A DNA stretch of 64,000 nucleotides from Brachionus manjavacas (Eukaryota > Rotifera > Eurotatoria > Ploima > Brachionidae): positions 3,100,001-3,164,000 of the forward strand of contig JAHQIY010000009.1 of NCBI GenBank assembly GCA_019054805.1. The letters run 5' to 3'. This document shows, in pieces, positions 9,836 through 64,000 of the stretch. The stretch's first letter is position 1; every line of letters starts with the position of its first letter. The notes beneath the pieces were generated by a model. That model was not told where the DNA came from. It did not search any database and worked only from the letters and a program-made list of their open reading frames with translations. Position numbers and translations under genes: made by a program.

Positions 9836-10009
9836 TATCCCCCCGTTTAAGATAGCATCGTCCTCGATGAACTCAGTTTTTAGAACTTCAGTTTGACAAA
9901 AAAATATAATTGAAAATTAATTAATTGAATAAATAAAATGATTATTAAAAAAAACTGTTTGTTAATTGCTTCTTTATAAAATAAATCTTTGATTTATTTC
10001 GAACATCTT

Positions 10010-11710: not shown

Positions 11711-11731
11711 CTTTTTATCGCTGCTACCAAT

Positions 11732-12003
11732 TGTAACCGGTTTATAATAAACAATGTTTAATCTTTAAAAGCTTTATTTATGATATTGAACGTTCTGAAG
11801 TTCTAAGAATGGAATTCTTATTTATACCTATATGCTCGTGAACACGAACACGAGCTTATAATTAACTCAAGATGTGAGCTTAGTGCTTAATGTATATGTC
11901 AGCATTTCGAAGCGTCTAACTTCTGAGATACGTGACAAGTATAATTCTTACTTATCTTTGTGCATCAGTTGACAAGCTGATGAATAAGTGATTCAGGGTA
12001 ACA
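11732..12003 (-). repeat. 5' LTR
   Basis: This is 272 bases and the partner of 9561-9835. In element orientation it is followed by a tRNA-type primer-binding site beginning TGGTAGC (reverse complement around 11720-11731). Confidence 0.85.
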
Positions 12004-13110: not shown

Positions 13111-13320
13111 GAAGAATTCAAATAAGGTTTCGAATCGAGATATATGTTTTTTAAACTTTCTATTTTAAACATTTTTTTTAGCTTATTTACTTCTTTTTTT
13201 TTTGGCCTTATTTTATTAACTTATTATTTTTATTTATTTTTTTTTTAATTTATTCTGAAGGAGCTCTAGTTATGTACAAAAAACAAATAACCAAATTTTT
13301 AGAACCAATAAAGCTAAATA

Positions 13321-18600: not shown

Positions 18601-21600
18601 TTTATTACAAATCAATTTCAGTAGACACAATTGCAGATGGTGAATGGCATTACTCATGCTTTGACATTGTAACTAATGTTGCTGACAACATTGGAACAGT
18701 TCTTATTCATAGAGTATTTAAAAATCTTAAATACCTAATTTTACCAATTTTTTAACACTTTTTCCAAGGCCACATTGTATCCATTTTCTACTCAAACAAG
18801 CTATGTTGATACTGTTTCGCTTAGAAACAATGTGCCACTCGGATATGATGGTAAACAAATTCCTCAAAAATAAATTAAACTTTTATTTTTTCAAAAAAAA
18901 AAAAAATGTTTGTTTAGATCCTAGACTGATTACAACAAGGCGATTGTATCCAAATGTTCCAATTATTCCATCTCAACTAGATTTTATTACTTCACCAAAT
19001 GACAAAACGTTTGCTCTTAGATACAAGCCAAACAATTGCCTAAATGGTCTCGATACTATTTCGATACGTAACTTTCCAGATGTTCCAATAACTCGTGACC
19101 AATCTGCCAATCCACCGGTAAATGGTTCTTTCAATTTGCTGTGGAATACCAAAAATTTCCAAGGTTTTTCTATTAAAAATTGCCAAGGTTTTTTTTATTT
19201 AATTTTTTTCCACAGATATTGGTGCCAATATTGATGATGAATCGCTAAAAAATTATCTAGAGTCAGCAAAGGATATGGGTCAAGTGTCTGTTGAACGTAG
19301 TAAAAACTGTGCTGGCTATAAATGGAGGATTAAATGGCAGTCTGGAGGAAGCAAACCACAAATGACAATAGTAATTTTAATAAGCTTATTTCTAAATAAA
19401 GTTGAAAAAATTAATTTTAAAATTTAAGGATTCACATTCGCTAGTGGGAAATTCAGCACAAATTTCCACAAAGCAAATTCAAATTGGTCATGCAATATTT
19501 GCTCCATTAACTGATAATATCATGAGGACTTTTCATCAAAAGCCTCAAGTGTGTGTTTTCTTTTTGTTTTTTGTCCTTGACACACGTTTTTTTATATTTT
19601 TTGTTTTATATTAAAATTAGATCACCGTGTCTATAGGTGGAATTATTTCAAAATGTTCTGGTTCATGTGATTTCGAATGGACAAATGACAAGACACCTGT
19701 GGTCGAATCAATTAATGAACACAATTCAAGTCTTGTTATTCTAAATGGCTACGGATTTGATCTAAATCGTGAAAACAATATTGTTAGAATTGGTCAAACA
19801 ATTTGTGATATTGTATCAGCAAGTGAGACTAAATTGGAATGTGTTCCTGGCCATGGACCTTTGGGAAGCTATTCTTATAGCTTAAATGTAATCGGAAAGG
19901 GTTTAGCAAGTTTGAATTCGACAGCGGCCAATGCCAAATACACATTTGAGCTTGACGCTTTATCGGTCAGTCCAGTGACAAGTGGTACTGGAGGTGGAGT
20001 AATTGTAAACATCACTGGTAAAGGCTTCACTGTCAACACAAAGGTATCAATTGATGGAAACGATTGTCCAGTCGTGGCAAATAGTTATAATCTAATTACT
20101 TGTATAGTTCCATCTAATGTAATTATAAATTTAAAATGCTTGAATTTTATTAAAAAAAAAAAATAAAATAAAATTTTACAACATTTTATTGTTAAATTAG
20201 TATTTAATTTTAATTTTTTTCAAAGCCAACAAACACCAACAAGACTGTGGATGTTCTAATTACGGAAGGTGGTCATGATAAAACTCTACCTGGAGCATTT
20301 TCCTATGATTATGACAATACACCTCAAGTGACGAGTATATCTAAAACAAAGCTGAGGGTAACAGGCGATGAGACAATAACAATTAATGGAACTTTTTCAG
20401 TGGAGAATATTCAAGTTTATGTTGGTTCTAAACTTGCCAAAATTGTTTCGTCTAATTCTGGTTCTGTTGTAATCAAAAGTCCATCAAATGAACCAGGCTT
20501 GTATCCATTGATAATTCCGATCGGCTCATTAGGAAATGCAAAGTAATTTATTTTTATTTTATTTTTAAGATTTTATTGTTTTGAAAAATTCTTCTTATCA
20601 AGGACTAGCGAGCAATTTGAATATGTTTTTTATGTTTCGTCTTTTGAGCCTAGATTTTCTTCCAAAAGAGGAGGATCACTAATTACCATTTATGGCGACG
20701 GATTCAATGCTGACGATTGTTCTTCTAATAAAGTCTCATTTGAAAGATTCAATTGCATTATTTTGAGCTGTACTACAAACTATGTTATTTGTGAGTCACA
20801 GGCCGCTCATACTGTATATGAAATTACCAATGGTGGACATAATCCGAGTAATGTTCAAAGAGAGAAAAAATTTTGACATATTCTTAAAATGATTAAATTT
20901 TTTTTTTACTTTTCAAAGGATGGGGACGGGGCTACGCTTGGGACCATCCTTATCTTGAAATAAAAAAAGGAGATGTGGTAACATGGTCATGGAAGCCATA
21001 CAATGTGGTAGCTGGTTTGAAATTTATGGTAGAGCAAATAAAAAGTCCGACTGAAATTGAAGCGCAAGGTTTTTGGAGTGGACCACCAACAGAAACAGGA
21101 TCTTTTACATTTCAATTTAATAATCCCGGTACTTACTATTATTGGTCTGGTTACGTTGAACAAAGCAAAGTAGTCAATTTCCATGGGGTTGTTGTTGTTT
21201 TGGACATAGATGAAGAAAAAGATTTGGAGATTGAAGTGACTCAAAATGAGATCAAAGCACTAAAGTGTAATTTTCCTTTCTCTTACAATTCGAACACGTA
21301 CAATGAATGCACTGATCAAGATCAAGCGTTCGCATGGTGTTCTCCATCTGAAAATGCAGATTCTGATCCAGTCAGATTAAATTGTGATCGATCAAGTGAG
21401 TCAAATGAATTCTATTGATTCCTTGTTTTAGTTGAATAACAATAATCCTTGACCAATTTTGTATTGTACATAAATCTAAATTGTATTTTACATATAGATA
21501 AAGTACTATTGACAAGTCCTGTAGATTAACATTGGCACAAACTTTTTTAAATTTGCTTTCAAGAATGAAAATAAAATAAATAATAAATAAAAAAATAATA

Positions 21601-24600
21601 AATTCAAGTGAACAATAAAATACCATCCTAATCAATAATGATAGAATTTTTTTTTCACAAATTACAAATTTTTTATTCAATTTAATATTTTTCTTTTTAA
21701 TTACCTGGTTAATTTTGAATATATTACATTTGAAATAAATGGAAATTTAGAAAAGGTATAAATGAGGAGAAAAGATTTATTCAATTTTGGAAAATTTTCA
21801 TTAGGTTAAAATTTGTTAGGTATTCTTACTTTTTCTAAACTTTTATAATTCTTTCTTTTTTTCAAAGTACTTTTCATTTTGATTAGGAGGATACCAGTTC
21901 CAGTTTAGTTTTACTTCCAAAAATTTGTTCTCAATCTCATTTTTTAAGATCCACCGGCTGATTCACCTTGTGCATCTCAAAACATTACGCAAACAGACTG
22001 TGGCAATGTACCTGCAAATAAATTGAGATTTACAAGTTGTTCAGTGCCAACAATCACAGCCGTGTCTCCTTCTAATGCAACATTTGACACCGAAATAAGC
22101 ATCACTGGAACTGGTTTCAGCATAACAGATTGTGAAAATGAAGTTTACATTGGTGACAAATTATGTACAATTGTTGCAGTTTCAGCGACAGAAATAAAAT
22201 GCAAAATTGGAAGAAATAGCGGATTGAAATCGTTTGCAGATCATGCAATCGAGGTCAAAGTAAAAAATAAAGGATATGCCCTAAAAATGGATGATTTTAT
22301 TGTGGTTCGATTTTTGGCTGTAGCTACCCAAATAACACCAAACATAGGTTCTTCGAATGGAGGTGCTCTAGTCACAATAAATGGAGACGGTTTTGACCAA
22401 TCGACCAAAGTTGTTCTTGATACTTTGGTCTATGATTCGAGCAACTCGCAGATTACTTTTGATTCTTTCAAATTTATAACATTGGCGAACACTGGTCAAC
22501 ATAATTTGTCCATGTACACAAACGGATTTGAAGTTGAGCATTTGACAAGTTTAACATATGAATTTTCTGAAGCCAAAAATCCTCAAATAACATCAATTTC
22601 AGTAAATGAAATTGAACAAGAAACAAATCTGACAATAGCAGGAAACAATTTTGGTTTGGAACCAAGTGAAATTGACCTAAAAATAGGAACACAAATTTGT
22701 CGAGCAATTAGCTTGGACGCTACAACCATAACATGCACAATTCCTGGTCTTGAAAGTGGATCGCACCTTGTGACTCTGAATGTTAGAACAATTGGTGACA
22801 GCAATGAGTTTAATGAGAGAATAACAGGAAGACCAACAGTCAAATCAATTTTTCCCAATTCTGGAAGTACCAATGGAGGCACCATTGTCAAAATTCAAGG
22901 AAACGGATTTACTCTTGGATCAAGTGTTCTTCTTGGCCAAGAAAGCATTTGTTTAGTTAAAAACGTCAAAATAAATGAAATCGAATGTGAAACACAAGCT
23001 GTATCTGCTCAAGTTGTAAATGTGTCTGTCATGACCTCAGGTGTTGAGCACTCAAGTGCTGCTGTTACTTTTACATTTGATTCGGACAAAACTCCAACTA
23101 TTACTTCGATAGATCCAGACCAAGAAAACTTTGGGTCAAGTCTGCTTACTTTAAGTGGAGAAAAGTTCAGTAGTGATAAAAATGAAGTTCATGTTCAGAT
23201 TGACGGCTCTGAATGTTCAGTCATTACATCGAGTTTAACTCAAATTACTTGTCTACTTGGTGAACATGGTGCTGGCACATATCCAATTGAATTGAAAATT
23301 GACTCTGTTGGCTACGCTAATAAGGATTTCAATTTTGTGTACAATCTCAATATTCACGATTTGAGTTCAAACGAAGCTAGTCTTGCTGGTGGTCTGCATT
23401 TGAAAATAAATGGAAGTGGTTTTTCTGACCAAAGTCATGTCACCATTTGTGATAATGAATGTGTACTTTTGAATTTAACAAGCTCACAAATACATTGTCT
23501 TGTTCCATTGGCAAATTCGTCATCTGACAAAGATTGCACCTTGAACATAAATGAAAATGGATTGAGTGCGCAGACAAGCTTTAACTATAGACAAAGTTTA
23601 ACACCAAAAGTTTTAAATTTGTGGCCAAATCGAGGTGGCACTGGTGGTGGAACTATTCTCACAATTACAGGCCAAAATTTTATGTAAAATAACTTTTTAA
23701 TTTTATCATTGATTGATTTTTCTATTGTTGACTGATTTGATTTTAATTTTTTTTTTTTTTTTTATACAAACAGACCTGATTCAACCAAAGTTGAAATAGC
23801 CAAAACAATTTGTCAAATAACTACAATGAATTCAACGAGCATTGTTTGTCGCACTGGGCCTCTTCCTTCTTCGTCAACAAAATCACTTGTTCAAGTTTAT
23901 GTCGACCAAATTGGAAATGCCATAAATGTAACTTTTCAACTCAAACTTTACCAACTAACAATTTTGTTTGTATTTTTTTTTTCTTAAAAAATAAAGCAAG
24001 AGCATTCTTTTGAATACATTGATCTTTGGTCTTCAAAATACACTTGGGGAGGCATGGACTTGCCCGGTGAAGGCGATGTAGTATTAATCAGTGAAAATCA
24101 AGCAGTCTACTTCGACACCCACACACCAATTCTCAAAGGTGTTCTGATCATTGGTGGTGCCTTGATCTTCGACGACATGCAAGATGTTCATCTTCAATGT
24201 GAATACATAATTATAATGTAAGTTTTATCAAGTCTTCTTTTTTCATCCCAAAAAAAACAAAAAAACATTTGGCCAAAAATTAATCTTTAATAATTTTGTG
24301 CAGCGATAATGGTCTGCTCCAGATCGGAACTGAAGATAAGCCTTTTGTGCACAAGGCAGAAATAACAATGTATGGCTCAGCTCGTTCAATTGAAATTCCG
24401 ATTTTTGGAGCCAAAGTAATTGCTCTTAGAAATGGCACAATAGACATGCACGGAAAGCCAGTTGGAGTTACATGGACACAGCTTGGTCAAACAGCTAGTG
24501 CTGGTTCAGATCAAATTGTTCTAAAAGAGTCTGTTTTATGGGAGATTGGCAGCGAAATAGTGATTGCCACAACTGGAGATTTATATTCTGTAAGAGAAAG

Positions 24601-27600
24601 TGAAGTTAGAACTATCAGTGGCAAGTCTGCTGATAACAAGACTTTGACTCTTGACCAGCACTTAAATCATACCCATTTATCGGTAGAAATACAAGTGGGA
24701 CAAAGTCCTGATTTATACACTGTTGAAAAGAAAGCCGAAGTGGGTCTTTTGAGCAGAAACATCAAATTTCGAGGAAACAATGACGAGTCGTGGAATTCTT
24801 TGAAAAGTGCGGCAGCTTGTCCCGAAGGCTTTGACCCTTCTGAATTCGCAACACAAACTTGCTACTTGGGAAGATACGGTGACGAAATAGGATCAAATGA
24901 ATTTGGTGCACAAATAATGATTCATGCGGACATGGATGCGCCACGAAACAAGGAGCATGTGATTGCCAGAATCCAAAATGTAGAATTGTTTCATGTTGGT
25001 CAATCGTTCAGACTTGGAAGGTATCCAATTCACTTTCATTTGAATGGTGACATGCCAAGCTCCTATGTGAGAGAGTGTTCGATAAGAAAATCTATCAACA
25101 GAGCAGTGAATGTGCATGGCACACATTATGTGAAAGTTTCGCGTAACTTCATCTACGACATAATGGGTGGCGCTTACTTTTTGGAAGATAGTGTAGAAAA
25201 TGAATGGAAATGAATTTAGCTACAATTTGGCAATTTTTGTCAAAACAAGCTCTAGCTTGCTAAACGAAGACTCGACACCAGCAGCATATTGGGTTACGAA
25301 CCCGAACAACACAGTTATTCACAATTCAGTTGCTGGAGGCACTCACTTTGGTTTCTGGTACAGACTTTTGGACCGGCCTGATGGACCTTCATTTGACCAA
25401 AATTATTGTCCCAAAAAAATTCCACTCGGACGCTTTTTTAACAACACAATTCATAGCTCTGGTCGAATTGGTCTCTGGATTTTCCCTGGGTACACGCCAT
25501 CGGTTTCTGGCTCATGCTGGGACTCAAGGCCTTCAGTTGCCAAATTTGAAAATTTAATATCATATTCAAATGAAAAAGGAAGTGAGTGGGTTTTTTCAAA
25601 TAGCTTACAGTTCAGAAATTTTTTAATTTATGATCAATACCATGTTGGAATTGAGACTAAAAACAATGTCTATCATTATCGTTTTTCCAAAAGTATTCAA
25701 CCTCTGGTAGCAACTTTCTATAACGAAAATACGGGCCCTGCAATTATCGATTCCATAATTATTGGTAATTCCAACAGTACGGAAAAATCATATACTCAAA
25801 GTGGATTAGTATTAGCTTGGGATAGAGGTCAATTGATTAAAAATGTTAATTTTATTAATTTTCCATCTGATTGGACTCATAGTATGCGAGGTCCAGAAAT
25901 AATTGGAACTTGTGTGTAAGTATTTAAAAAATTTAAAATTTTTAAAAATTCTTGAAAATTGTTTATTATAATGATTCGCCTAATAGAAGCTTTTGCATAG
26001 TTTTTCAAAATTCATAAAGTACAATTCGAAATTCAAATTGAAAAAATTACGATTACAATTATTTAAAGCCAATTTAAAAAATAGATAATAAAAATAATTT
26101 AAAGCAAAGAAAATTTAAAAATTTAAGTCTTTTTATCGGTTTTAAAAAATACTTGAATTTATTTATCAAGTCATTTTAAGTAGTATTTTCTAAAACAGTA
26201 TCAAGTCAAGACTATGATTAAACTTTTTTGACTTAAAAACCAAATTGGTTTAAGGCTTAAGAATTTAAATTTATTAATTGTTAGCTCATCTAGGTAAGCT
26301 ATTCTTGATTTCATTTTTTGAACAATCAACTTACTTTCTATGATCACCGTAAAGCAGTTACTATAAAGGGCTTCCTTAGTAGGTCGTCTCCCCAAGTCTG
26401 CTTGCTATATCTAATTAATAGTATTATTATTATAATTATTTAATATTATTTTAGTTGATATTATTTAAATAAAATATTAAAAATTTTGGTTAAAACATAA
26501 GCAATTTTAAAAAGAATGTCTAGTACATGTTTTATTTTTATAAATGTTAAAAAAACAAACTCTTTTATTCCTGTTAAGTTATTATTTTATTTGGTCAAGT
26601 TCAATAAATTAAATAAATTAAAAAAAGCCTGTAGATCTCTAATTCATCAAAGACTTGTGACAAAATTTATCGACTATATATTTTCGTAAATGGTATTTTC
26701 AATTTCCTTTTTTTTAACAAATTTTTATTTAAAATAAAATTTTTTTTTCTAATAAATATTTCATTTTGATATGAGAAAATAAAAAGTTATGATTCCAATT
26801 GGGATAGAGGTAAATTAATCAAAAATATTACTTTGATTAATATTCCGTCTGATAAAAAGTCATTGCATGAAAGGTTTCTAATTCAAAAATATTTAAATAA
26901 AAATTCCGTATTTATTTTATGATTTTTTGAAAAAGTAATTCAAAAAAAATGAAAACAGCATATTTTTTTTTTGTTGAAAAAATAGAAATTTCCAACTTCT
27001 TGGGCTTTTAATATTTTACCATTATTACTTTTATCTTTTATTAACTTAATTTTCCTTAAGTAATTAAACTAAAAAAAATGGAAAATGACAATGATCATAT
27101 TTATTTAGATAAAGCTCAATTTTTGACCAGAACTTTTTGAAAAAAGTATTTGAAATTTTTTATTTGGAATAATAATTTAAGATTTTCATTTTTTTTTAAA
27201 TATTCAAATCTGAAAGAATAAAATGTTTTTTTAAGGATATTTTGTGGTGGTTGGGTGACCAAACTGGAACAATTGAAATTTGTCAATGTGCAAATTAGAG
27301 CAATTCAGAGATGGGACTGGGACTTGATCTATGATGACTTAGATGGTAGTTTGACAGATGAGACGAATAGTGTTGTGGTTTATAACAACAATTTTACCAT
27401 AAATGATCCCAATTGTAGACCAGACATGCGTTTTATAAATGGTTCTATTTGCAAGGATACAAAAGGCTGGATTAGATTTGCATTCAATGATCTTAATCCT
27501 GATTTAGTGATTAGAGCAAATATCACAAATAATGACGGACAAATGGCATCTACAATTAAGTATGCAAAAAGATTAACTCACATTCTTGGATTTATGAGTG

Positions 27601-30600
27601 CTTTAGAAGCAAACCAGCGCTATCTAATTGAATTCGATCAAGCCTTGTATCCAACCAACATTACATATTCTGCTGGTTTCTATAATATTGAGCCAGGCAA
27701 CTGGATTATAATCATGCATCGAATGTGGAAAAAGCCAGATAGAGTATTTTTCGGAAGCCAATTGCAAATTGAATCTTTTGTTCCACTTAGTACCACTATG
27801 GACACAGGCAGATGGTACTGGGACAATTCAACCCAACTGCTGAGTTACATTTTAAACAACAAGAACAACATCAGTCCATTTGTTGATTATGAAGTTCTGT
27901 TTGATGCTCATGTCTGCCGATATGTTGGCTGTGAGTTGCCAATTCAGCCAGGGTACAGACTACCTGTGACACAACGTCCTCCCAATGCCTTATTTTGGTC
28001 AGATGTCGAAACGTGGGCATTTGCTGAGCCAGGCTGGGGTGGACATGTGGAAACACGCAGCACTCGCCTATCCTATCAATTGCCTCAAGATGGCCAAAGT
28101 GTAAAAATTCCAGACGGAAAATATGTGGTTGTTGATTGTGCCATACCCAAATTGAAATATTTACAGATTGATGGTGTCTTGGAATTTGACAATGGCCTAA
28201 ATCACACTCTAAGTGCTGAATTGATTTTTGTCAATGGAGGCCAATTGATTATTGGATGGCAAAATGATCCTATTTTGAATAGTGTTGACATAATTTTGCG
28301 CGGAACAAAAGATTCGCTCAATTTCTATCTGCCCGATGGACTGAGCAACATTGGTGGCAAAGGAATAGGAGTCTTTGGTGGTCTTGATTTGCATGGTCGA
28401 CCAAGACAACCCTCTTGGACAACACTATCACATTCTTCATTCAAAAACACCAGCACAATCAAATTGACACTGCCAGTCGACTGGCTGCCAGGCGAAACCA
28501 TTGTCATCGGATCCACTTCGTATCATCCAAACCAGACAGAAATATTTAAAATAGTTGCCAAATCAGCTGACAACAAAACACTCACTCTGAATTCAACTCT
28601 AGAGTTCGATCACATGGCCTATGGCGAAACATATCCAAATGGTGAGTCATACACAATTGGTGCACCAGTTGGTCTTTTGTCAAGAAACATACGAATAATT
28701 GGCGAACAATATGCAGATCAATTTGCTCAGCTGTACGGATCAAGAACCATTGTTTCGGACTATTCGACTCTGGACCCGGAAGGCAACCCAGTTTTCTACA
28801 AGGGATATGCGAGGCTATCAGATGTGGAATTTGATCTTTTTGGTCAATTTAGTCGAGGCGATAGCGACGACTACAAATATGGCATTTTGTTCTCGAACTT
28901 GGGCGACTACAACTACTCTCGTCCATCATATGTGCGAAATTGTGCTTTTCATCATGGCTTTGCGGCTGCCGTCGGCATTCTAGAGTCAAACAGCATACCA
29001 ATAGAAGACAATGTAGTTCATCGAACACTCGACTTTGGCATCTACTTGGAAGGACACTCGAACAATGTGAGAAGAAACATGCTTGTCTATGTGCTTTGGT
29101 CATCTTCGATATTGTTTTGGGAAGCTGAATTCAATTCGGAATATTGGGGCGCCATAGACGCTCATTTGGCCAAGTCTGTGGTGCTAGAAGACAACTTCAT
29201 CAGTGGTGTCGAACGACTTGGACTGTTCTACAAAGCTGAAGCATGTGATCACTTGAATGAAACTGTTGGAGTGGGAATGAATAATTCTATCAAAGGAAAC
29301 ACAATTTATTCTTGTTTGGCTGGTGTAGTTCTGCTTCCGGACTTTTACCACGAAAATTTAACTTGTGTGAAAATAGCTGGCTTTACCATTTATAAGGCTA
29401 TGCATTGGGGTATTTATTACCAAGGCCCGCAAAGTGTGGTCCTGGACACAAATAAATTAATAGACAATTTCGTTGGAGCATTTACTTTTGTGATCAAACC
29501 ACCGCCAATTTTACACCAGTTGACAAATAAATTTTACACTAATAAAAATTCATTGATTGTTGGTCAGTCAAAGGATTTTAATTGCGAAACAGATGAACGA
29601 ACATTTGATTTAAATTATAATTCAGCAGTTCGAATTCAAACTTTTGGTGCAGATTCAAGCGAACTTGGCAGAATAGGTCTAGTATGGTCAAACTTTATTG
29701 GCGGCACAAATATGGCACCTTACAAACCTTGGGCTGGCATTAAGACTTTTCAATCAATTGACGGTACAACTAATTTTGAAAATTTAACATTCACTAATTT
29801 TGACGCTAAATGTGGCACCAGAAATTATGCAATATCAACAAACAAATATAATGATGACGGTCAGCATCCAGTTATGATGAAAAATATTCACCTATATGGT
29901 GTTGAAAATTCATCCAAAATTTGGATACATAGACCAAATTTAGATAAAATAAATATCTGGGACTGTATAGATATGGACTGTGATGCGATGAAAAAAGCTC
30001 TTCTGAATGATTTAGATGGATCTTTTTTGGGTGAACGAGGCACAGTCATACCTCAATCGGAATTTGAGTGGGGCAGCCAGAAGAGAGGTCTTGGTGATTT
30101 TAGAATTCCAAAAGAAATGCTTGCTGCACCAAATGGATCAATGATTCCACCAAATCAAACCTACAAGTATCCTGGAATTGTTAGAGACGAAAATTTGTGC
30201 CAATATATTGATGATTGGCAAGCGTACAAATGCCATGGAATTGAGCATAGAGTTTTGATTATTGAAAGTATGGACCCGGAAACAATAAGAAGAAGATTGT
30301 CACCAGTGGCAATTCATGTCAATAATACATATTTGGATTTAATAAATGGACCACAAGGTATGTGAAAATTTATTAAATGGCAACATTTTTTAGGCTTTAC
30401 AAAACTAAGATCTATTTTTTATATATTTTTTAAAAAACAATATAATCAATTTTTTGTTTTTAAAAAAAATTTCCAACTAAGAGAAAGAAGAGGAGAAGGC
30501 TTTTTCATTCATCGTATTCAAAATTTGAAATTAAAATCTTCCTAGGAAATTTCGATTTTTTCAAATGCGACATTCTTCAAAAATATTTTTCTTTTTAATA

Positions 30601-33817: not shown

Positions 33818-33869
33818 AAAAATAAGCTTTCAAAATTGAATTTTATTTATTTAGTTCAAAACTTTGAAA

Positions 33870-48589: not shown

Positions 48590-49218
48590 AAGAACACAAT
48601 TTTGAATTATATCATGAACAATTTTTGGCTCATTTTTCTGGATTATTTAATATTTTTGATTGAAAAATTAAAAAAATTTTACTTAAACTTTTTCAATTTA
48701 AATAAATGTTTAATTTTAAGAATTACAAATTGATTTATTATTAGAAGAATTGAAAAAAGTAAATACCACTCACAAATCATTGTCTACCACAGAAGCTAAT
48801 AGTTCCTGATCATTCCATTGATTTAGACGCTATCTATGTCTAGAAAACGCAGAAAGAAGATTAACTTTATCTGCTTTAGCATGGTATGTGTGTTGAGAAA
48901 ATGGTTGCTTAATTTATATTTGTCATTCGGGAAAGCTTTTTCTTAGAGTAAAAAACAAGTTTTTTTAATTTTAAAAATCAACTTTAGTTGATGTTATCCA
49001 AATAGAGTTAAATTAGAAACTAGATATTAGGCATGTTTCGATAAACAGTCACCTTTTCAACTGAAAAAAGCGTGTTTGAATGAGAAAAAATTTTGTTTTA
49101 AAATTTGCAAAGAAAAGACTAGAAAATAAATTTAAAAATTTTATTAAGGCAAAAATACTAGACATTTTTCAAAGTTTTGAACTAAATAAATAAAATTCAA
49201 TTTTGAAAGCTTATTTTT
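48590..49218. other. Shared 3' region between convergent KCC and fibrocystin-L
   Basis: The 629 bases separate the KCC stop (48587-48589) from the fibrocystin-L stop (49219). AATAAA at 48701-48706 (+) and TTTATT at 49140-49145 (-) would end the two transcripts without overlap, leaving about 400 bases. The middle (about 48770-48910) is the least AT-rich part and is conserved in the left arm (34125-34265). Confidence 0.6.
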
Positions 49219-52200
49219 CTAAAAAAAGATAAAAAAAAATTTAAATGATGATAAAACTAGCAGAGCTAAAATATTTTGTTTGATTTTAATTGCGGCACTA
49301 GTTTCTTGAATTGTCTCAGTTACTTGAATATCTATTACAGTTTTTTCGATTTTAATGGGTCTATCATTTAAAATGGCTGATACAAGTGACAAACCGGGAA
49401 CAATTTGGATTCCTGCAGCAACATCTTGACCAAATTTAGTCATATTTTCGGCATTTCCCAAATAGTCAAAGTTAACCATTACGCTGCCACTGTAGACAGA
49501 AATGGGAGTTTTTAAAGTTAAGCCGTATTTTTCTAGATAACAGTTGTACATGACAGCCTTGATGTCTTCTACTTTATGCTTGTAATCATTGAAATCTCCT
49601 TCGAAAGTGAAGTAAGATGAGGGAATTGTGGTGTCGTCTAGGACAGTTTTAACTTTGCTCACAATGATTGATTTCGAAAGACAAGTGAAAGAGTAATCAT
49701 CATCGGATGTTTTCAGAGAAATAGTGAGCACATACATGCCAGTTTTGTTGATGCATAAATTTTCAAAAATGAACACACCATCAGCAAGATATGCCGATGT
49801 GTTCAAGGAGTCAACTTGAAGACTACCTTCTGCTTGGCATCTTTCTAGTTTGTGTATTCCGATAGCTGCTTGCCAAGTGTGATTTTTCCAATCTAAATTT
49901 TTGACTTTTTTGGATGAGAATTTGTCAATTACCGAAACACTTAGATCAAAAAATTCGTTTTCAACAACAACCATATTTGATTGATCTGAAATGCAAAAAA
50001 ATTCGGCTTTTGACGAACTTAAAGATTTAGTTGAAGCCAAAGATGGTGGTGTATAGTTTGAATCAGTGAGTCCTTGTGGAGTCTTGAATTTGTATCGAAT
50101 TTTGAAGCTAGATGTTATCTCTGAAATACTCATGTTTTCGAATCTAACATAACCATCGTCTCCAAGACTTGCTTCACTTTGAAATACAATCTGAGCGCTT
50201 GGACTATCACAATCGTAAATTTCTGCTTCAACAATCCAAGGAAATTCCTCGTTTGCCATATTCAATAATAAATCATCCTTTTAGGAATAAAAAAATCAAT
50301 TTTTTTGATTCTCAATTTATTTAAAAATAATAAATTAATTTTTCTAATCAGTAAAGTAATAATGATTTAGCACTCTTGAATAAATGTTTTTTTTTTCTTA
50401 CTATTACCCTTTGTTTTTAAACGTTTAGAAAATTTCCAAAAAAGTTACATCCCAAGTTTATTTTTAATCTAAAGTCATTTATTTTTATTTTTATTATTTT
50501 TCTGTTACTTTTTAAAATAAAATCAAGTCAATAATAATAATAATGAAAAAAAGTAATTAACATTTTTAATAGTTAATTATACTGCCAGAATGGAAACGTT
50601 AAGTTTTTCTTAATTAATTTTAAAATAATTTTTCGTGATTGTTATAACATTTTTTTTCTTTCCATTTAAATCAAATTGCAATTGTAATTTTGCATTTTTT
50701 TTTAAAAAAAGAAAAAGTTTCAATAATTACACTTTTTTTTCTTAAAATATTTGATCATTATTTAATAAAGTTTTGATTTATTTTTTTAATTATAACAAAA
50801 TACTTGGGCAGAAAAAATTACCGTTAAAAAATTTGAACTATGCAATGTTTCTTAATAAATTTTTTTTACTTTTTAAATTTTAAGAATGTTACTAAAATAA
50901 AAAAAATGAAATGAAAATTGTCTTAAACTTTGACAAAAATAAATGATAAATCTTAAAAATCTCACGTTTTCATCAACAACTTGCAGAATAGGTTGCACTT
51001 GACATGGTACCATTTCTTTGCATTCATCGGCTTCTTGCTGAACAACAATTCTGTTTATCTTTTTAATTTGAGCATCAGTTCCATTCGAATTTGGCTTTTG
51101 AACTAAAAGATCAGACAAAGTTACATTGAACAATTGCATAGCTTTGTCTTGCAATATTCCAGTGGTAAATCTATTGATTATCGAAGCAGTGAAATTGTTC
51201 AGTTCGCTCCTGATTAATTTGTCCTGATCTTGTAGAGAAATAGTCTCAATAGGATCCTCCATAATAGTCAAGGAAATAAAAGTTGTTTGAGTCGACCTGC
51301 GTTTTCTCAACTCTGCACTCTCTGCTACTATTTCAACTCTGCGTATTTTACTCGCAGGTATGCCCAATAAATCTGCAAAGTTTTGAACCAGTATCTCTTT
51401 GTTGAAAAATGCTGATTCTGTAATTGCAGGCACTCCAAATTTGACAAAAATTGTTGGTGTCACTTTCAAATCAATGTAATCACCACCTCCCAAAGTAAAA
51501 TACACTTTTGAATCTTGTCTTACGGCCAAATTAGTGCCAGATTGATTGCTGTAATGAGGCATATATTTTTCCAGGTTTCCGGTCGTATCATTTAGTTGCA
51601 TTTTACCATCTACATAGTGAGCATTGGTAGGCTGGACAAATCGATCGTTTTTGTACAGATCAATTCTGTTTGATGTAAAGTAATGCATTGACAATCGAAC
51701 TTTGTAGTTTTCATCTGCATTTAAGATTCTGAATCTTAATTGAGTTGGAGGTAAACTTGTCAAATAAACATCTATGTTTATGTTTGAAGCTATAATTGCC
51801 ATAAATGTAGATAAACGTTCAAGGCAAGTGTATCCAAAACAGCAACCATGATCTTTTTAATTAGAATCAATTAAAGACAAATGACTGGAGATATTTTAAC
51901 TAAGGAAACAGCTTTTACATCTGAAATTATTTTTCATTTTCTATTAAATTTTTTAAAATAAAATAAAAAATTTTCTTTTTATTTTTGGACACTTTCATTA
52001 GGTTATTATTTATTATCAGATTTAAAAAAGAAAAAAATGGCAAAAACCTTCTAAAAATCAAAAAAATAGAAAGAGGGAAAAAAAATTATAATCATGAATG
52101 GAATGAACTGGTTCAACGTTTAAATAAAATTAATCAAGAAGAATCAGGATTTTTTCAGGATTTTAAAAATGCAATCCAATTAAGAATGGTTAAGGTTGTG

Positions 52201-55200
52201 ATGGAAGAATTGGCTAAAAGCGGTGAAAATAATTTTAGAGATCGAGAGGTAAAAAATACAATGACATTTCAATTAATTGATGTGGCTTTAGATGTTATTT
52301 TTATTTGCATAAGTTGATACGAAAAAATGCGGAAATACTTTTATTGTCTATTTAAGCAAATATAATCAACAATCAAAGAAAATAAGCCCAATATAAATTT
52401 AATGACAAAGAGAATCATTATTAAAAAGAAAAATATTTTTGAAGAATGTCGCATTTGAAAAAATCGAAATTTCCTAGGAAGATTTTAATTTCAAATTTTG
52501 AATACGATGAATGAAAAAGCCTTCTCCTCTTCTTTCTCTTAGTTGGAAATTTTTTTTAAAAACAAAAAATTGATTATATTGTTTTTTAAAAAATATATAA
52601 AAAATAGATCTTAGTTTTGTAAAGCCTAAAAAATGTTGCCATTTAATAAATTTTCACATACCTTGTGGTCCATTTATTAAATCCAAATATGTATTATTGA
52701 CATGAATTGCCACTGGTGACAATCTTCTTCTTATTGTTTCCGGGTCCATACTTTCAATAATCAAAACTCTATGCTCAATTCCATGGCATTTGTACGCTTG
52801 CCAATCATCAATATATTGGCACAAATTTTCGTCTCTAACAATTCCAGGATACTTGTAGGTTTGATTTGGTGGAATCATTGATCCATTTGGTGCAGCAAGC
52901 ATTTCTTTTGGAATTCTAAAATCACCAAGACCTCTCTTCTGGCTGCCCCACTCAAATTCCGATTGAGGTATGACTGTGCCTCGTTCACCCAAAAAAGATC
53001 CATCTAAATCATTCAGAAGAGCTTTTTTCATCGCATCACAGTCCATATCTATACAGTCCCAGATATTTATTTTATCTAAATTTGGTCTATGTATCCAAAT
53101 TTTGGATGAATTTTCAACACCATATAGGTGAATATTTTTCATCATAACTGGATGCTGACCGTCATCATTATATTTGTTTGTTGATATTGCATAATTTCTG
53201 GTGTCACATTTAGCGTCAAAATTAGTGAATGTTAAGTTTTCAAAATTAGTTGTACCGTCAATTGATTGAAAAGTCTTAATGCCAGCCCAAGGTTTGTAAG
53301 GTGCCATATTTGTGCCGCCAATAAAGTTTGACCATACTAGACCTATTCTGCCAAGTTCGCTTGAATCTGCACCAAAAGTTTGAATTCGAACTGCTGAATT
53401 ATAATTTAAATCAAATGTTCGTTCATCTGTTTCGCAATTAAAATCCTTTGACTGACCAACAATCAATGAATTTTTATTAGTGTAAAATTTATTTGTCAAC
53501 TGGTGTAAAATTGGCGGTGGTTTGATCACAAAAGTAAATGCTCCAACGAAATTGTCTATTAATTTATTTGTGTCCAGGACCACACTTTGCGGGCCTTGGT
53601 AATAAATACCCCAATGCATAGCCTTATAAATGGTAAAGCCAGCTATTTTCACACAAGTTAAATTTTCGTGGTAAAAGTCCGGAAGCAGAACTACACCAGC
53701 CAAACAAGAATAAATTGTGTTTCCTTTGATAGAATTATTCATTCCCACTCCAACAGTTTCATTCAAGTGATCACATGCTTCAGCTTTGTAGAACAGTCCA
53801 AGTCGTTCGACACCACTGATGAAGTTGTCTTCTAGCACCACAGACTTGGCCAAATGAGCGTCTATGGCGCCCCAATATTCCGAATTGAATTCAGCTTCCC
53901 AAAACAATATCGAAGATGACCAAAGCACATAGACAAGCATGTTTCTTCTCACATTGTTCGAGTGTCCTTCCAAGTAGATGCCAAAGTCGAGTGTTCGATG
54001 AACTACATTGTCTTCTATTGGTATGCTGTTTGACTCTAGAATGCCGACGGCAGCCGCAAAGCCATGATGAAAAGCACAATTTCGCACATATGATGGACGA
54101 GAGTAGTTGTAGTCGCCCAAGTTCGAGAACAAAATGCCATATTTGTAGTCGTCGCTATCGCCTCGACTAAATTGACCAAAAAGATCAAATTCCACATCTG
54201 ATAGCCTCGCATATCCCTTGTAGAAAACTGGGTTGCCTTCCGGGTCCAGAGTCGAATAGTCCGAAACAATGGTTCTTGATCCGTACAGCTGAGCAAATTG
54301 ATCTGCATATTGTTCGCCAATTATTCGTATGTTTCTTGACAAAAGACCAACTGGTGCACCAATTGTGTATGACTCACCATTTGGATATGTTTCGCCATAG
54401 GCCATGTGATCGAACTCTAGAGTTGAATTCAGAGTGAGTGTTTTGTTGTCAGCTGATTTGGCAACTATTTTAAATATTTCTGTCTGGTTTGGATGATACG
54501 AAGTGGATCCGATGACAATGGTTTCGCCTGGCAGCCAGTCGACTGGCAGTGTCAATTTGATTGTGCTGGTGTTTTTGAATGAAGAATGTGATAGTGTTGT
54601 CCAAGAGGGTTGTCTTGGTCGACCATGCAAATCAAGACCACCAAAGACTCCTATTCCTTTGCCACCAATGTTGCTCAGTCCATCGGGCAGATAGAAATTG
54701 AGCGAATCTTTTGTTCCGCGCAAAATTATGTCAACACTATTCAAAATAGGATCATTTTGCCATCCAATAATCAATTGGCCTCCATTGACAAAAATCAATT
54801 CAGCACTTAGAGTGTGATTTAGGCCATTGTCAAATTCCAAGACACCATCAATCTGTAAATATTTCAATTTGGGTATGGCACAATCAACAACCACATATTT
54901 TCCGTCTGGAATTTTTACACTTTGGCCATCTTGAGGCAATTGATAGGATAGGCGAGTGCTGCGTGTTTCCACATGTCCACCCCAGCCTGGCTCAGCAAAT
55001 GCCCACGTTTCGACATCTGACCAAAATAAGGCATTGGGAGGACGTTGTGTCACAGGTAGTCTGTACCCTGGCTGAATTGGCAACTCACAGCCAACATATC
55101 GGCAGACATGAGCATCAAACAGAACTTCATAATCAACAAATGGACTGATGTTGTTCTTGTTGTTTAAAATGTAACTCAGCAGTTGGGTTGAATTGTCCCA

Positions 55201-58200
55201 GTACCATCTGCCTGTGTCCATAGTGGTACTAAGTGGAACAAAAGATTCAATTTGCAATTGGCTTCCGAAAAATACTCTATCTGGCTTTTTCCACATTCGA
55301 TGCATGATTATAATCCAGTTGCCTGGCTCAATATTATAGAAACCAGCAGAATATGTAATGTTGGTTGGATACAAGGCTTGATCGAATTCAATTAGATAGT
55401 GCTGGTTTGCTTCTAAAGCACTCATAAATCCAAGAATGTGAGTTAATCTTTTTGCATACTTAATTGTAGATGCCATTTGTCCGTCATTATTTGTGATATT
55501 TGCTCTAATCACTAAATCAGGATTAAGATCATTGAATGCAAATCTAATCCAGCCTTTTGTATCCTTGCAAATAGAACCATTTATAAAACGCATGTCTGGT
55601 CTACAATTGGGATCATTGATGGTAAAATTGTTGTTATAAACCACAACACTATTCGTCTCATCTGTCAAACTACCATCTAAGTCATCATAGATCAAGTCCC
55701 AGTCCCATCTCTGAATTGCTCTAATTTGCACATTTACAAATTTCAATTGTTCCAGTTTGGTCACCCAACCACCACAAAATATCCTTAAAAAAACATTTTT
55801 TTCTTTCAGATTTGAATATTTAAAAAAAAATGAAAATCTTAAATTATTATTCCAAATAAAAAATTTCAAATACTTTTTTCAAAAAGTTCTGGTCAAAAAT
55901 TGAGCTTTATCTAAATAAATATGATCATTGTCATTTTCCATTTTTTTTAGTTTAATTACTTAAGGAAAATTAAGTTAATAAAAGATAAAAGTAATAATGG
56001 TAAAATATTAAAAGCCCAAGAAGTTGGAAATTTCTATTTTTTCAACAAAAAAAAAATATGCTGTTTTCATTTTTTTTGGAATTACTTTTTCAAAAAATCA
56101 TAAAATAAATACGGAATTTTTATTTAAATATTTTTGAATTAGAAACCTTTCATGCAATGACTTTTTATCAGACGGAATATTAATCAAAGTAATATTTTTG
56201 ATTAATTTACCTCTATCCCAATTGGAATCATAACTTTTTATTTTCTCATATCAAAATGAAATATTTATTAGAAAAAAAAATTTTATTTTAAATAAAAATT
56301 TGTTAAAAAAAAGGAAATTGAAAATACCATTTACGAAAATATATAGTCGATAAATTTTGTCACAAGTCTTTGATGAATTAGAGATCTACAGGCTTTTTTT
56401 AATTTATTTAATTTATTGAACTTGACCAAATAAAATAATAACTTAACAGGAATAAAAGAGTTTGTTTTTTTAACATTTATAAAAATAAAACATGTACTAG
56501 ACATTCTTTTTAAAATTGCTTATGTTTTAACCAAAATTTTTAATATTTTATTTAAATAATATCAACTAAAATGATATTAAATAATTATAATAATAATACT
56601 ATTAATTAGATATAGCAAGCAGACTTGGGGAGACGACCTACTAAGGAAGCCCTTTATAGTAACTGCTTTACGGTGATCATAGAAAGTAAGTTGATTGTTC
56701 AAAAAATGAAATCAAGAATAGCTTACCTAGATGAGCTAACAATTAATAAATTTAAATTCTTAAGCCTTAAACCAATTTGGTTTTTAAGTCAAAAAAGTTT
56801 AATCATAGTCTTGACTTGATACTGTTTTAGAAAATACTACTTAAAATGACTTGATAAATAAATTCAAGTATTTTTTAAAACCGATAAAAAGACTTAAATT
56901 TTTAAATTTTCTTTGCTTTAAATTATTTTTATTATCTATTTTTTAAATTGGCTTTAAATAATTGTAATCGTAATTTTTTCAATTTGAATTTCGAATTGTA
57001 CTTTATGAATTTTGAAAAACTATGCAAAAGCTTCTATTAGGCGAATCATTATAATAAACAATTTTCAAGAATTTTTAAAAATTTTAAATTTTTTAAATAC
57101 TTACACACAAGTTCCAATTATTTCTGGACCTCGCATACTATGAGTCCAATCAGATGGAAAATTAATAAAAGTAACATTTTTAATCAATTGACCTCTATCC
57201 CAAGCTAAAACTAATCCACTTTGAGTATATGATTTTTCCGTACTGTTGGAATTACCAATAATTATGGAATCGATAATTGCAGGGCCCGTGTTTTCGTTAT
57301 AGAAAGTTGCTACCAGAGGTTGAATACTTTTGGAAAAACGATAATGATAGACATTGTTTTTAGTCTCAATTCCAACATGGTATTGATCATAAATTAAAAA
57401 ATTTCTGAACTGTAAGCTATTTGAAAAAACCCATTCACTTCCTTTTTCATTTGAATATGATATTAAATTTTCAAATTTGGCAACTGAAGGCCTTGAGTCC
57501 CAGCATGAGCCAGAAACCGATGGCGTGTATCCAGGGAAAATCCAGAGACCAATTCGACCAGAGCTATGAATTGTGTTGTTAAAAAAGCGTCCGAGTGGAA
57601 TTTTTTTGGGACAATAATTTTGGTCAAATGAAGGTCCATCAGGCCGGTCCAAAAGTCTGTACCAGAAACCAAAGTGAGTGCCTCCAGCAACTGAATTGTG
57701 AATAACTGTGTTGTTCGGGTTCGTAACCCAATATGCTGCTGGTGTCGAGTCTTCGTTTAGCAAGCTAGAGCTTGTTTTGACAAAAATTGCCAAATTGTAG
57801 CTAAATTCATTTCCTATTTCTACACTATCTTCCAAAAAGTAAGCGCCACCCATTATGTCGTAGATGAAGTTACGCGAAACTTTCACATAATGTGTGCCAT
57901 GCACATTCACTGCTCTGTTGAAAGATTTTCTTATCGAACACTCTCTCACATAGGAGCTTGGCATGTCACCATTCAAATGAAAGTGAATTGGATACCTTCC
58001 AAGTCTGAACGATTGACCAACATGAAACAATTCTACATTTTGGATTCTGGCAATCACATGCTCCTTGTTTCGTGGCGCATCCATGTCCGCATGAATCATT
58101 ATTTGTGCACCAAATTCATTTGATCCTATTTCGTCACCGTATCTTCCCAAGTAGCAAGTTTGTGTTGCGAATTCAGAAGGGTCAAAGCCTTCGGGACAAG

Positions 58201-61200
58201 CTGCCGCACTTTTCAAAGAATTCCACGACTCGTCATTGTTTCCTCGAAATTTGATGTTTCTGCTCAAAAGACCCACTTCGGCTTTCTTTTCAACAGTGTA
58301 TAAATCAGGACTTTGTCCCACTTGTATTTCTACCGATAAATGGGTATAATTTAAGTGCTGGTCAAGAGTCAAAGTCTTGTTATCTGCAGACTTGCCACTG
58401 ATAGTTCTAACTTCGCTTTCTCTTACAGAATATAAATCTCCAGTTGTGGCAATCACTATTTCGCTGCCAATCTCCCATAAAACAGACTCTTTTAGAACAA
58501 TTTGATCTGAACCAGCACTAGCTGTTTGACCAAGCTGTGTCCATGTAACTCCAACTGGCTTTCCGTGCATGTCTATTGTGCCATTTCTAAGAGCAATTAC
58601 TTTGGCTCCAAAAATCGGAATTTCAATTGAACGAGCTGAGCCATACATTGTTATTTCTGCCTTGTGCACAAAAGGCTTATCTTCAGTTCCGATCTGGAGC
58701 AGACCATTATCGCTGCACAAAATTATTAAAGATTAATTTTTGGCCAAATGTTTTTTTGTTTTTTTTGGGATGAAAAAAAAAGAAGACTTGATAAAACTTA
58801 CATTATAATTATGTATTCACATTGAAGATGAACATCTTGCATGTCGTCGAAGATCAAGGCACCACCAATGATCAGAACACCTTTGAGAATTGGTGTGTGG
58901 GTGTCGAAGTAGACTGCTTGATTTTCACTGATTAATACTACATCGCCTTCACCGGGCAAGTCCATGCCTCCCCAAGTGTATTTTGAAGACCAAAGATCAA
59001 TGTATTCAAAAGAATGCTCTTGCTTTATTTTTTAAGAAAAAAATACAAACAAAATTGTTAGTTGGTAAAGTTTGAGTTGAAAAGTTACATTTATGGCATT
59101 TCCAATTTGGTCGACATAAACTTGAACAAGTGATTTTGTTGACGAAGAAGGAAGAGGCCCAGTGCGACAAACAATGCTCGTTGAATTCATTGTAGTTATT
59201 TGACAAATTGTTTTGGCTATTTCAACTTTGGTTGAATCAGGTCTGTTTGTATAAAAAAAAAAATAATTAAAATTAAATCAGTCAACAAAAGAAAAATCAA
59301 TCAGTGATAAAATTAAAAAGTTATTTTACATAAAATTTTGGCCTGTAATTGTGAGAATAGTTCCACCACCAGTGCCACCTCGATTTGGCCACAAATTTAA
59401 AACTTTTGGTGTTAAACTTTGTCTATAGTTAAAGCTTGTCTGCGCACTCAATCCATTTTCATTTATGTTCAAGGTGCAATCTTTGTCAGATGACGAATTT
59501 GCCAATGGAACAAGACAATGTATTTGTGAGCTTGTTAAATTCAAAAGTACACATTCATTATCACAAATGGTGACATGACTTTGGTCAGAAAAACCACTTC
59601 CATTTATTTTCAAATGCAGACCACCAGCAAGACTAGCTTCGTTTGAACTCAAATCGTGAATATTGAGATTGTACACAAAATTGAAATCCTTATTAGCGTA
59701 GCCAACAGAGTCAATTTTCAATTCAATTGGATATGTGCCAGCACCATGTTCACCAAGTAGACAAGTAATTTGAGTTAAACTCGATGTAATGACTGAACAT
59801 TCAGAGCCGTCAATCTGAACATGAACTTCATTTTTATCACTACTGAACTTTTCTCCACTTAAAGTAAGCAGACTTGACCCAAAGTTTTCTTGGTCTGGAT
59901 CTATCGAAGTAATAGTTGGAGTTTTGTCCGAATCAAATGTAAAAGTAACAGCAGCACTTGAGTGCTCAACACCTGAGGTCATGACAGACACATTTACAAC
60001 TTGAGCAGATACAGCTTGTGTTTCACATTCGATTTCATTTATTTTGACGTTTTTAACTAAACAAATGCTTTCTTGGCCAAGAAGAACACTTGATCCAAGA
60101 GTAAATCCGTTTCCTTGAATTTTGACAATGGTGCCTCCATTGGTACTTCCAGAATTGGGAAAAATTGATTTGACTGTTGGTCTTCCTGTTATTCTCTCAT
60201 TAAACTCATTGCTGTCACCAATTGTTCTAACATTCAGAGTCACAAGGTGCGATCCACTTTCAAGACCAGGAATTGTGCATGTTATGGTTGTAGCGTCCAA
60301 GCTAATTGCTCGACAAATTTGTGTTCCAATTTTTAGGTCAATTTCACTTGGTTCCACACCAAAATTGTTTCCTGCTATTGTCAGATTTGTTTCTTGTTCA
60401 ATTTCATTTACTGAAATTGATGTTATTTGAGGATTTTTGGCTTCAGAAAATTCATATGTTAAACTTGTCAAATGCTCAACTTCAAATCCGTTTGTGTACA
60501 TGGACAAATTATGTTGACCAGTGTTCGCCAATGTTATAAATTTGAAAGAATCAAAAGTAATCTGCGAGTTGCTCGAATCATAGACCAAAGTATCAAGAAC
60601 AACTTTGGTCGATTGGTCAAAACCGTCTCCATTTATTGTGACTAGAGCACCTCCATTCGAAGAACCTATGTTTGGTGTTATTTGGGTAGCTACAGCCAAA
60701 AATCGAACCACAATAAAATCATCCATTTTTAGGGCATATCCTTTATTTTTTACTTTGACCTCGATTGCATGATCTGCAAACGATTTCAATCCGCTATTTC
60801 TTCCAATTTTGCATTTTATTTCTGTCGCTGAAACTGCAACAATTGTACATAATTTGTCACCAATGTAAACTTCATTTTCACAATCTGTTATGCTGAAACC
60901 AGTTCCAGTGATGCTTATTTCGGTGTCAAATGTTGCATTAGAAGGAGACACGGCTGTGATTGTTGGCACTGAACAACTTGTAAATCTCAATTTATTTGCA
61001 GGTACATTGCCACAGTCTGTTTGCGTAATGTTTTGAGATGCACAAGGTGAATCAGCCGGTGGATCTTAAAAAATGAGATTGAGAACAAATTTTTGGAAGT
61101 AAAACTAAACTGGAACTGGTATCCTCCTAATCAAAATGAAAAGTACTTTGAAAAAAAGAAAGAATTATAAAAGTTTAGAAAAAGTAAGAATACCTAACAA

Positions 61201-64000
61201 ATTTTAACCTAATGAAAATTTTCCAAAATTGAATAAATCTTTTCTCCTCATTTATACCTTTTCTAAATTTCCATTTATTTCAAATGTAAAATATTCAAAA
61301 TTAACCAGGTAATTTAAAAGAAAAATATTAAATTGAATAAAAAATTTGTCATTTGTGAAAAAAAATTCTATCATTATTGATTAGGATGGTATTTTATTTT
61401 TCACTTGAATTTATTATTTTTTTATTTATTATTTATTTTATTTTCATTCTTGAAAGCAAATTTAAAAAAGTTTGTGTCAATGTTAATCTACAGGACTTGT
61501 CAATTGTACTTTATCTAAATGTAAAATACAATTTAGATTTATGTACAATACAAAATTGGTCAAGGATTATTGTTATTCAACTAAAACAAGGAATCAATAG
61601 AATTCATTTGACTCACTTGATCGATCACAATTTAATCTGACTGGATCAGAATCTGCATTTTCAGATGGAGAACACCATGCGAACGCTTGGTCTTGATCAG
61701 TGCATTCATTGTACGTGTTTGAATTGTAAGAGAAAGGAAAATTACACTTTAGTGCTTTGATCTCATTTTGAGTCACTTCAATCTCCAAATCTTTTTCTTC
61801 ATCTATGTCCAAAACAACAACAACCCCATGGAAATTGACTACTTTGCTTTGTTCAACGTAACCAGACCAATAATAGTAAGTACCGGGATTATTAAATTGA
61901 AATGTAAAAGATCCTGTTTCTGTTGCCGGTCCACTCCAAAAACCTTGCGCTTCAATTTCAGTCGGACTTTTTATTTGCTCTACCATAAATTTCAAACCAG
62001 CTACCACATTGTATGGCTTCCATGACCATGTTACCACATCTCCTTTTTTTATTTCAAGATAAGGATGGTCCCAAGCGTAGCCCCGTCCCCATCCTTTGAA
62101 AAGTAAAAAAAAAATTTAATCATTTTAAGAATATGTCAAAATTTTTTCTCTTTGAACATTACTCGGATTATGTCCACCATTGGTAATTTCATATACAGTA
62201 TGAGCGGCCTGTGACTCACAAATAACATAGTTTGTAGTACAGCTCAAAATAATGCAATTGAATCTTTCAAATGAGACTTTATTAGAAGAACAATCGTCAG
62301 CATTGAATCCGTCGCCATAAATGGTAATTAGTGATCCTCCTCTTTTGGAAGAAAATCTAGGCTCAAAAGACGAAACATAAAAAACATATTCAAATTGTTC
62401 GCTAGTCCTTGATAAGAAGAATTTTTCAAAACAATAAAATCTTAAAAATAAAATAAAAATAAATTACTTTGCTTTTCCTAATGAGCCGATCGGAATTATC
62501 AATGGATACAAGCCTGGTTCATTTGATGGACTTTTGATTACAACAGAACCAGAATTAGACGAAACAATTTTGGCAAGTTTAGAACCAACAAAAACTTGAA
62601 TATTCTCCACTGAAAAAGTTCCATTAATTGTTATTGTCTCATCGCCTGTTACCCTCAGCTTTGTTTTAGATATACTCGTCACTTGAGGTGTATTGTCATA
62701 ATCATAGGAAAATGCTCCAGGTAGAGTTTTATCATGACCACCTTCCGTAATTAGAACATCCACAGTCTTGTTAGTGTTTGTTGGCTTTGAAAAAAATTAA
62801 AATTAAATACTAATTTAACAATAAAATGTTGTAAAATTTAATATTAATTTTTTGTATTTAATAAAATTTAAGCAATTTAAATTTATAATTACATTAGATG
62901 GAACTATACAAGTAATTAGATTATAACTATTTGCCACGACTGGACAATCGTTTCCATCAATTGATACCTTTGTGTTGACAGTGAAGCCTTTACCAGTGAT
63001 GTTTACAGTTACTCCACCTCCAGTACCACTTGTCACTGGACTGACAGATAAAGCGTCAAGCTCAAATGTGTATTTGGCATTGGCCGCTGTCGAATTCAAA
63101 CTTGCTAAACCCTTTCCGATTACATTTAAGCTATAAGAATAGCTTCCCAAAGGTCCATGGCCAGGAACACATTCCAATTTAGTCTCACTTGCTGATACAA
63201 TATCACAAATTGTTTGACCAATTCTAACAATATTGTTTTCACGATTTAGATCAAATCCGTAGCCATTTAGAATAACAAGACTTGAATTGTGTTCATTAAT
63301 TGATTCGACTACAGGTGTCTTGTCATTTGTCCATTCGAAATCACATGAACCAGAACATTTTGAAATAATTCCACCTATAGACACGGTGATCTAATTTTAA
63401 TATAAAACAAAAAATATAAAAAAACGGGTGTCAAGGACAAAAAACAAAAAGAAAACACACACTTGAGGCTTTTGATGAAAAGTCCTCATGATATTATCAG
63501 TTAATGGAGCAAATATTGCATGACCAATTTGAATTTGCTTTGTGGAAATTTGTGCTGAATTTCCCACTAGCGAATGTGAATCCTTAAATTTTAAAATTAA
63601 TTTTTTCAACTTTATTTAGAAATAAGCTTATTAAAATTACTATTGTCATTTGTGGTTTGCTTCCTCCAGACTGCCATTTAATCCTCCATTTATAGCCAGC
63701 ACAGTTTTTACTACGTTCAACAGACACTTGACCCATATCCTTTGCTGACTCTAGATAATTTTTTAGCGATTCATCATCAATATTGGCACCAATATCTGTG
63801 GAAAAAAATAAAATAAAAAAAACCTTGGCAATTTTTAATAGAAAAACCTTGGAAATTTTTGGTATTCCACAGCAAATTGAAAGAACCATTTACCGGTGGA
63901 TTGGCAGATTGGTCACGAGTTATTGGAACATCTGGAAAGTTACGTATCGAAATAGTATCGAGACCATTTAGGCAATTGTTTGGCTTGTATCTAAGAGCAA
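49219..64000 (-). CDS. Fibrocystin-L (PKHD1L1-like), right-arm copy, partial 5'
   Basis: This is the mirror image of the left copy, read on the minus strand from the window edge (within exon 10, ending 63848) to the stop at 49221-49219. Exons 10-23 are visible with the same splice sites, for example exon 22 at 51852-50966 and exon 23 at 50277-49219. Exon 20 (from about 58712 down to 57105) is open throughout and lacks the 4-base insertion, reading LEDSVEIGNEFSYN across that site. Compared with the left copy it shows scattered replacements (H/Y, I/F and N/T in exon 20; S/F, T/A, Y/C, A/V in the last exon). Exons 1-9 (signal peptide, first IPTs, PA14) lie beyond the window if present. TTTATT at 49140-49145 is its poly(A) signal in reverse. 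It is convergent with KCC. This is the likelier functional copy. Confidence 0.9.
52037..52317 (+). pseudogene. Right-arm counterpart of the intronic ORF, 13-bp deletion
   Basis: Aligned to 30702-30995, the right arm keeps the same ATG (52037) and downstream sequence but lacks 13 bases between ATGGC and CCTTCT, so the reading stops after five codons. The rest of the frame is open only from an unrelated upstream ATG (51985). Confidence 0.4.

Follow-up and report, generated by a model that had tools for sequence, protein, structure and literature searches.

An inverted pair of fibrocystin-L-like genes enclosing a predicted K-Cl cotransporter gene in Brachionus manjavacas, probably homogenised by gene conversion

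Introduction

The best-known inverted gene arrangements of the kind considered here are the palindromes of mammalian sex chromosomes (PMC3723533, PMC8981503). In Caenorhabditis, old paralogous genes in inverted pairs are alike within a species, and gene conversion is one of the causes proposed for this (Zhao et al. 2007, PMC1803023). For parthenogenetic animals, one survey lists 19 palindromes in the bdelloid rotifer Adineta vaga and none in three other bdelloids, and warns that wrong scaffolding can yield artificial palindromes (PMC7953838). Here we describe a locus of the rotifer Brachionus manjavacas, contained for the most part in a stretch of 64,000 nucleotides (the window; positions 3100001-3164000 of contig C9), in which two giant genes resembling fibrocystin-L (PKHD1L1) face each other as mirror images across a predicted K-Cl cotransporter (KCC) gene. 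The arms are nearly identical, introns included, and are probably the product of an old inverted duplication later homogenised by gene conversion. Searches of a limited literature collection for PKHD1L1, for Brachionus gene conversion and for inverted duplication found no report of this locus. All positions are in window numbering, and values above 64000 or below zero lie on the same contig outside the window. The genome searched comprised 114 Mb in 61 contigs, labelled C9, C12 and so on.

Results

BLAST of the window against itself returned one long inverted match, 19011-34488 against 64000-48541, at 98.76% identity. Once the comparison took in a further 100 kb of the contig to either side, the match grew to 15678-34488 against 67336-48541 (18,858 columns, 98.80% identity, 117 mismatches and 23 gap openings), which is far beyond what chance can account for; a MAFFT alignment of the arms gave 121 substitutions. 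An earlier sequence-only reading had described the arms as reverse complements, and this is borne out. The inner junctions it gave were approximately right (34488/48541), whereas its outer limit of 19011 merely marks the point at which the window cuts the right arm. The true outer ends are 15678 and 67336, and the structure does continue beyond the window, as had been claimed, with the right arm overrunning it by 3,336 bases. The left arm (15678-34488, + strand) carries one fibrocystin-L-like gene with its start codon at 15693. The part of the right arm inside the window is 48541-64000 (- strand), and the aligned start codon of its gene is at 67321. Each arm is thus a single gene, from the start codon to past the last long reading frame, and the two genes converge tail to tail on a spacer of 14.05 kb (34489-48540), with the KCC gene between them on the + strand. 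When three pieces of the arm were searched against the whole genome, no third copy came up at arm-level identity.

The introns are part of the duplication, as the sequence-only reading had stated, with 54 substitutions in 7,390 non-coding positions. Since introns are as alike as exons, the copying took place at the level of DNA and not via mRNA. For the coding comparison, exon borders were set by open reading frames rather than by splice evidence, giving 11 exon stretches. Here 27 of 2,417 synonymous sites differ (1.1%) and 21 of about 8,782 non-synonymous sites (0.24%), which bears out the earlier remark that amino-acid changes are few; two of the 21 fall in the codon beside a 4-bp insertion described below. 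The resulting dN/dS of about 0.21 (Fisher p = 1.7e-7) shows net purifying selection on the arm genes. Such a ratio is what would be expected if selection alone kept two old copies alike. However, identity reaches about 99% in introns and at silent sites as well, whereas a paralogue on C12 is 70-78% identical to the arm gene in exons. Selection by itself is rejected because the introns are alike too, and we give it practically no chance of being the explanation.

Over all silent sites the arms differ at 83 of 9,815 positions (0.85%), and this divergence is patchy. Twenty equal bins span 0-2.2% with a variance-to-mean ratio of about 3, and in each of four binnings none of 5,000 uniform simulations matched the unevenness observed. 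Non-coding sites alone were uneven as well (p = 0.0004-0.0011 in three binnings, tests made without control for constraint within introns), as were synonymous sites alone (p = 0.017 in six exon groups holding 24 of the 27 differences, the first exon, with 3 differences, being excluded). The longest run free of differences, mostly coding, was 2,164 bp, against an expected mean maximum of 642.

Identity drops sharply at both ends of the near-identical block, and homology continues beyond it. On the outer side, the first 40 coding bases of the left gene (15693-15732, + strand), which resemble a signal peptide, differ from the right copy at 7 positions in the alignment, compared with 2 in the next 80 bases. 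They exceed the silent rate inside the arms (Fisher p = 6e-8), and we place the outer limit of the homogenised block here. Upstream of the start codons the two sides could not be aligned and no locus-specific homology is left; the outer flanks of the two arms have only dispersed repeats or short matches in common. Short inverted matches in collinear order (12916-13145, 13211-13290 and 14979-15051 against 74288-73519) were considered as older arm homology and rejected, both stretches searched being many-copy dispersed repeats.

At the inner end (34488/48541), the left arm is followed by a stretch made up largely of dispersed repeats (34575-35413, no strand assigned), with partial matches of about 72-82% on at least nine other contigs, which we interpret as sequence inserted in the left 3' flank. 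Beyond it, 35427-35524 (+ strand) retains older homology to 48475-48374 (- strand) in the right inner flank, a segment that follows the KCC stop codon and precedes the right arm. Their alignment has 103 columns, of which 11 are mismatches and 6 are gaps (83.5% identity), a divergence (11/97) well above the silent value of 83/9,815 inside the arms (Fisher p = 1.6e-9). A whole-genome search with 34440-35730, made with a tool that by its own warning passes over very common words, found the right flank as the sole other location of this segment, so it is not a dispersed repeat. The older homology at the inner edge and the first 40 coding bases, both at about 83%, argue that the locus is older than the identity of its arms suggests. 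BLAST and the genome search also detected, at 35535-35717 (+ strand), a degenerate copy of the 3' region of the gene (33876-34102, 48935-49160). It is about 70% identical, lies in direct orientation to the left gene, and points to further old duplications at the locus.

A single recent inverted duplication, for example by fork template switching, with breakpoints that happened to fall near the start codon and past the 3' end and with no later conversion, would agree with 98.8% identity and fairly sharp ends, with the presence of arm sequence at such identity in only two places of the genome, and with outer flanks devoid of locus-specific homology beyond the start codon. It fails, however, to predict the homology of about 83% just outside both ends or a silent divergence that varies up to tenfold between stretches, and it requires an in-phase start codon and signal peptide to have been in place already at the new site. 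We consider it unlikely.

Another possibility is that the second arm was made in assembly, by a haplotype misjoin or a fold-back chimera, or that polishing mixed the reads of the two arms. The linkage of arms to spacer is known from the assembly alone, such errors are documented in the survey cited above (PMC7953838), and the frameshift in the left copy resembles the small errors that polishing leaves behind. A fold-back or a misjoin of alleles should, however, extend allelic sequence past the arm, and the right outer flank is different DNA. The locus also sits about 3.12 Mb into the 3.94-Mb contig, away from its end. Nor would a misjoin create the old, diverged and locus-specific homology seen in the two inner flanks. 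The dN/dS of 0.21 further marks the differences as non-random, though true alleles would also give that. In view of the right outer flank and the old homology at the inner flanks, an artefact appears quite unlikely. In the 300 bases at either end of C9, no telomere-like repeats were evident by eye.

Domain searches of the open frames in the arms identified fn2, IPT/TIG, G8 and CEMIP beta-helix domains. TIG occurs in up to seven stretches in one exon, G8 twice, the CEMIP beta-helix above the cut-off twice and fn2 above the cut-off once; PA14 was present below the cut-off only (16.4 versus 24 bits). The combination of IPT/TIG, PA14, G8 and a parallel beta-helix in one large secreted or membrane protein is what we take to be the fibrocystin-L set. 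Judged by its IPT/TIG, G8 and beta-helix domains, the predicted arm protein belongs to the fibrocystin-L family, which agrees with the giant surface protein proposed before. In total four fibrocystin-L-like genes were seen, namely those of the two arms, the paralogue on C12, whose longest exon is 80% identical at the protein level, and a further gene on C17 (48-56%). The first exon of the C12 paralogue, sought for dating the signal peptide, was not recognisable within the 1.5 kb examined. Of the 34 rows of a genome search, 24 matched only a short dispersed repeat (26321-26484) that lies within an intron of the arm gene.

The copies differ in how intact they are. The arm alignment and the open frames place a 4-bp insertion in the left copy (25199-25202, + strand), which shifts the reading frame; the frame that it splits is open across the site in the right copy (543 codons) and also in the C12 relative (559 codons). 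The left copy may be degenerating, or the insertion may be a sequencing error. Polarised by C12, 22 arm differences in three segments comprised 11 derived in the left copy, 5 derived in the right copy and 6 unresolved (p = 0.21).

The 14-kb spacer had been described as a separate transporter gene, and 34489-48540 does contain a gene of the SLC12/KCC type. This SLC12A4-7-like gene takes up most of the spacer (36859-48253, + strand), its start codon being placed from the translation and its stop codon from the open frame, and it carries AA_permease and SLC12 domains. One exon of 196 residues gave E values of about 1e-72 to 1e-74 for SLC12A4-7, compared with about 1e-26 for SLC12A2 (NKCC) and about 1e-18 for SLC12A3. 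The spacer gene is accordingly predicted to be a KCC, with KCCs and not NKCC or NCC as its nearest solved relatives. A KCC paralogue on C41 is 88% identical in the same exon. A nucleotide search with 24001-27000 gave no fibrocystin-L match on C41, so as far as this search goes a fibrocystin-L-like gene and a KCC gene do not lie side by side at both sites. At 38362-38751, and outside the window at 71009-71354, lie self-complementary repeats some 350-400 bp long that are probably miniature transposable elements; the second is also present near the C12 and C17 relatives.

Other features were seen in the surroundings. At 1674-3603 lies a gene in which the domain search found a SKICH domain and an autophagy-receptor zinc finger, and which presumably resembles the TAX1BP1/CALCOCO family. 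A Ty3-type gag frame on the reverse strand is enclosed by a pair of direct repeats, each about 276 bp long and 98% identical to the other (9560-12003); this looks like a short LTR retrotransposon, with no polymerase seen. Further to the left, two inverted glycosyltransferase-like frames, 89% identical over 949 bp and with other genes between them, occupy about 3040091-3040974 and 3054285-3055231 of C9 (window -59909 to -59026 and -45715 to -44769). From their motifs we take them to be beta-1,4-galactosyltransferase-like. This pair was considered as an analogue of the arm pair and rejected, as its 99.5% inner piece is a repeat with 43 rows on several contigs. Two matches to the Rfam RNA RAGATH-11 (106 bits, cut-off 79) were found at L020:3059-3178 (-) and L019:2393-2512 (+), some 48 and 57 kb to the left of the window, within a 970-bp unit that gave 43 match rows clustered on C9, C11, C12, C19 and C27. 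No paper using the word RAGATH-11 was found in the literature collection searched.

Discussion

We favour an old inverted duplication, later homogenised by gene conversion between the arms, over a single recent duplication, and put its probability at roughly 0.66. The sequence-only reading had named arm-to-arm conversion only as something possible in such palindromes; the remnants of older homology at either end of the block and the patchy silent divergence now support it for this locus. The duplication would have set two fibrocystin-L-like genes tail to tail around the KCC gene, after which the flanks and the extreme ends of the genes would have diverged. The arms could then pair as inverted repeats, and during repair one would be copied over the other, in one or more conversion events. 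Such copying would have overwritten nearly the whole transcription unit including the introns, while the signal-peptide end and the 3' flank kept the older level of divergence. Conversion as the cause, its occurrence in several tracts, its direction and the expression of both genes are inferred.

Several points weigh against this reading. The evidence at the outer end consists of 40 bases of signal peptide, possibly fast-diverging under selection, and upstream of the start codon there is nothing locus-specific, the matches there being dispersed repeats. The comparison rests on one species and one haplotype, and the age on those 40 bases together with the 103 inner columns. The overdispersion could also stem from mutation rates, or from constraint in introns, that vary from place to place, and polishing of each arm with reads of the other could mimic patchiness. 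As to GC-biased conversion, just 16 of the 22 arm differences could be polarised by C12.

The homogenised block nearly coincides with the transcription unit, from about 40 bases past the start codon to beyond the last long reading frame. It is a speculative and rather improbable extension that transcription guides or limits the conversion, the pair then serving as a repair copy for a giant essential gene, with occasional crossovers between the arms flipping the transporter gene. If such crossovers occur, the spacer gene is expected in both orientations in the population. Under the conversion reading, the locus would offer a clean case in which a very large gene evolves in concert with its mirror-image copy, with an unrelated gene between the arms, and the residual homology outside the block would separate the age of the duplication from that of the homogenisation within a single genome.

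The known systems resemble this locus in different respects. The Caenorhabditis pairs (PMC1803023) are likewise convergent or divergent paralogues that are near-identical within one genome despite an old duplication. Their spacers, however, measure 126 bp and 414 bp in two examples, one of which has arms of about 2 kb, whereas the arms of the present locus reach 18.9 kb and enclose a whole unrelated gene; the age of those pairs was shown through other species, and here it is seen through residual homology only. The palindromes of mammalian X and Y chromosomes (PMC3723533, PMC8981503) share large, gene-bearing inverted arms kept alike by arm-to-arm conversion, but those arms are more than 99% or more than 99.9% identical, compared with 98.8% here, and they are located on sex chromosomes, whereas the present locus is placed to contig C9 alone. 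In the Adineta vaga palindromes (PMC7953838) genes are also reverse-complementary on one contig; many of these cases are multi-gene blocks (at least five genes in the original study) and depend on scaffolding, in contrast to the single giant gene per arm found here within one 3.94-Mb contig. On this comparison the locus is best called, as we would suggest, a further member of the inverted gene pairs under conversion, set apart by single-gene arms of unusual length and by a spacer that holds an entire gene.

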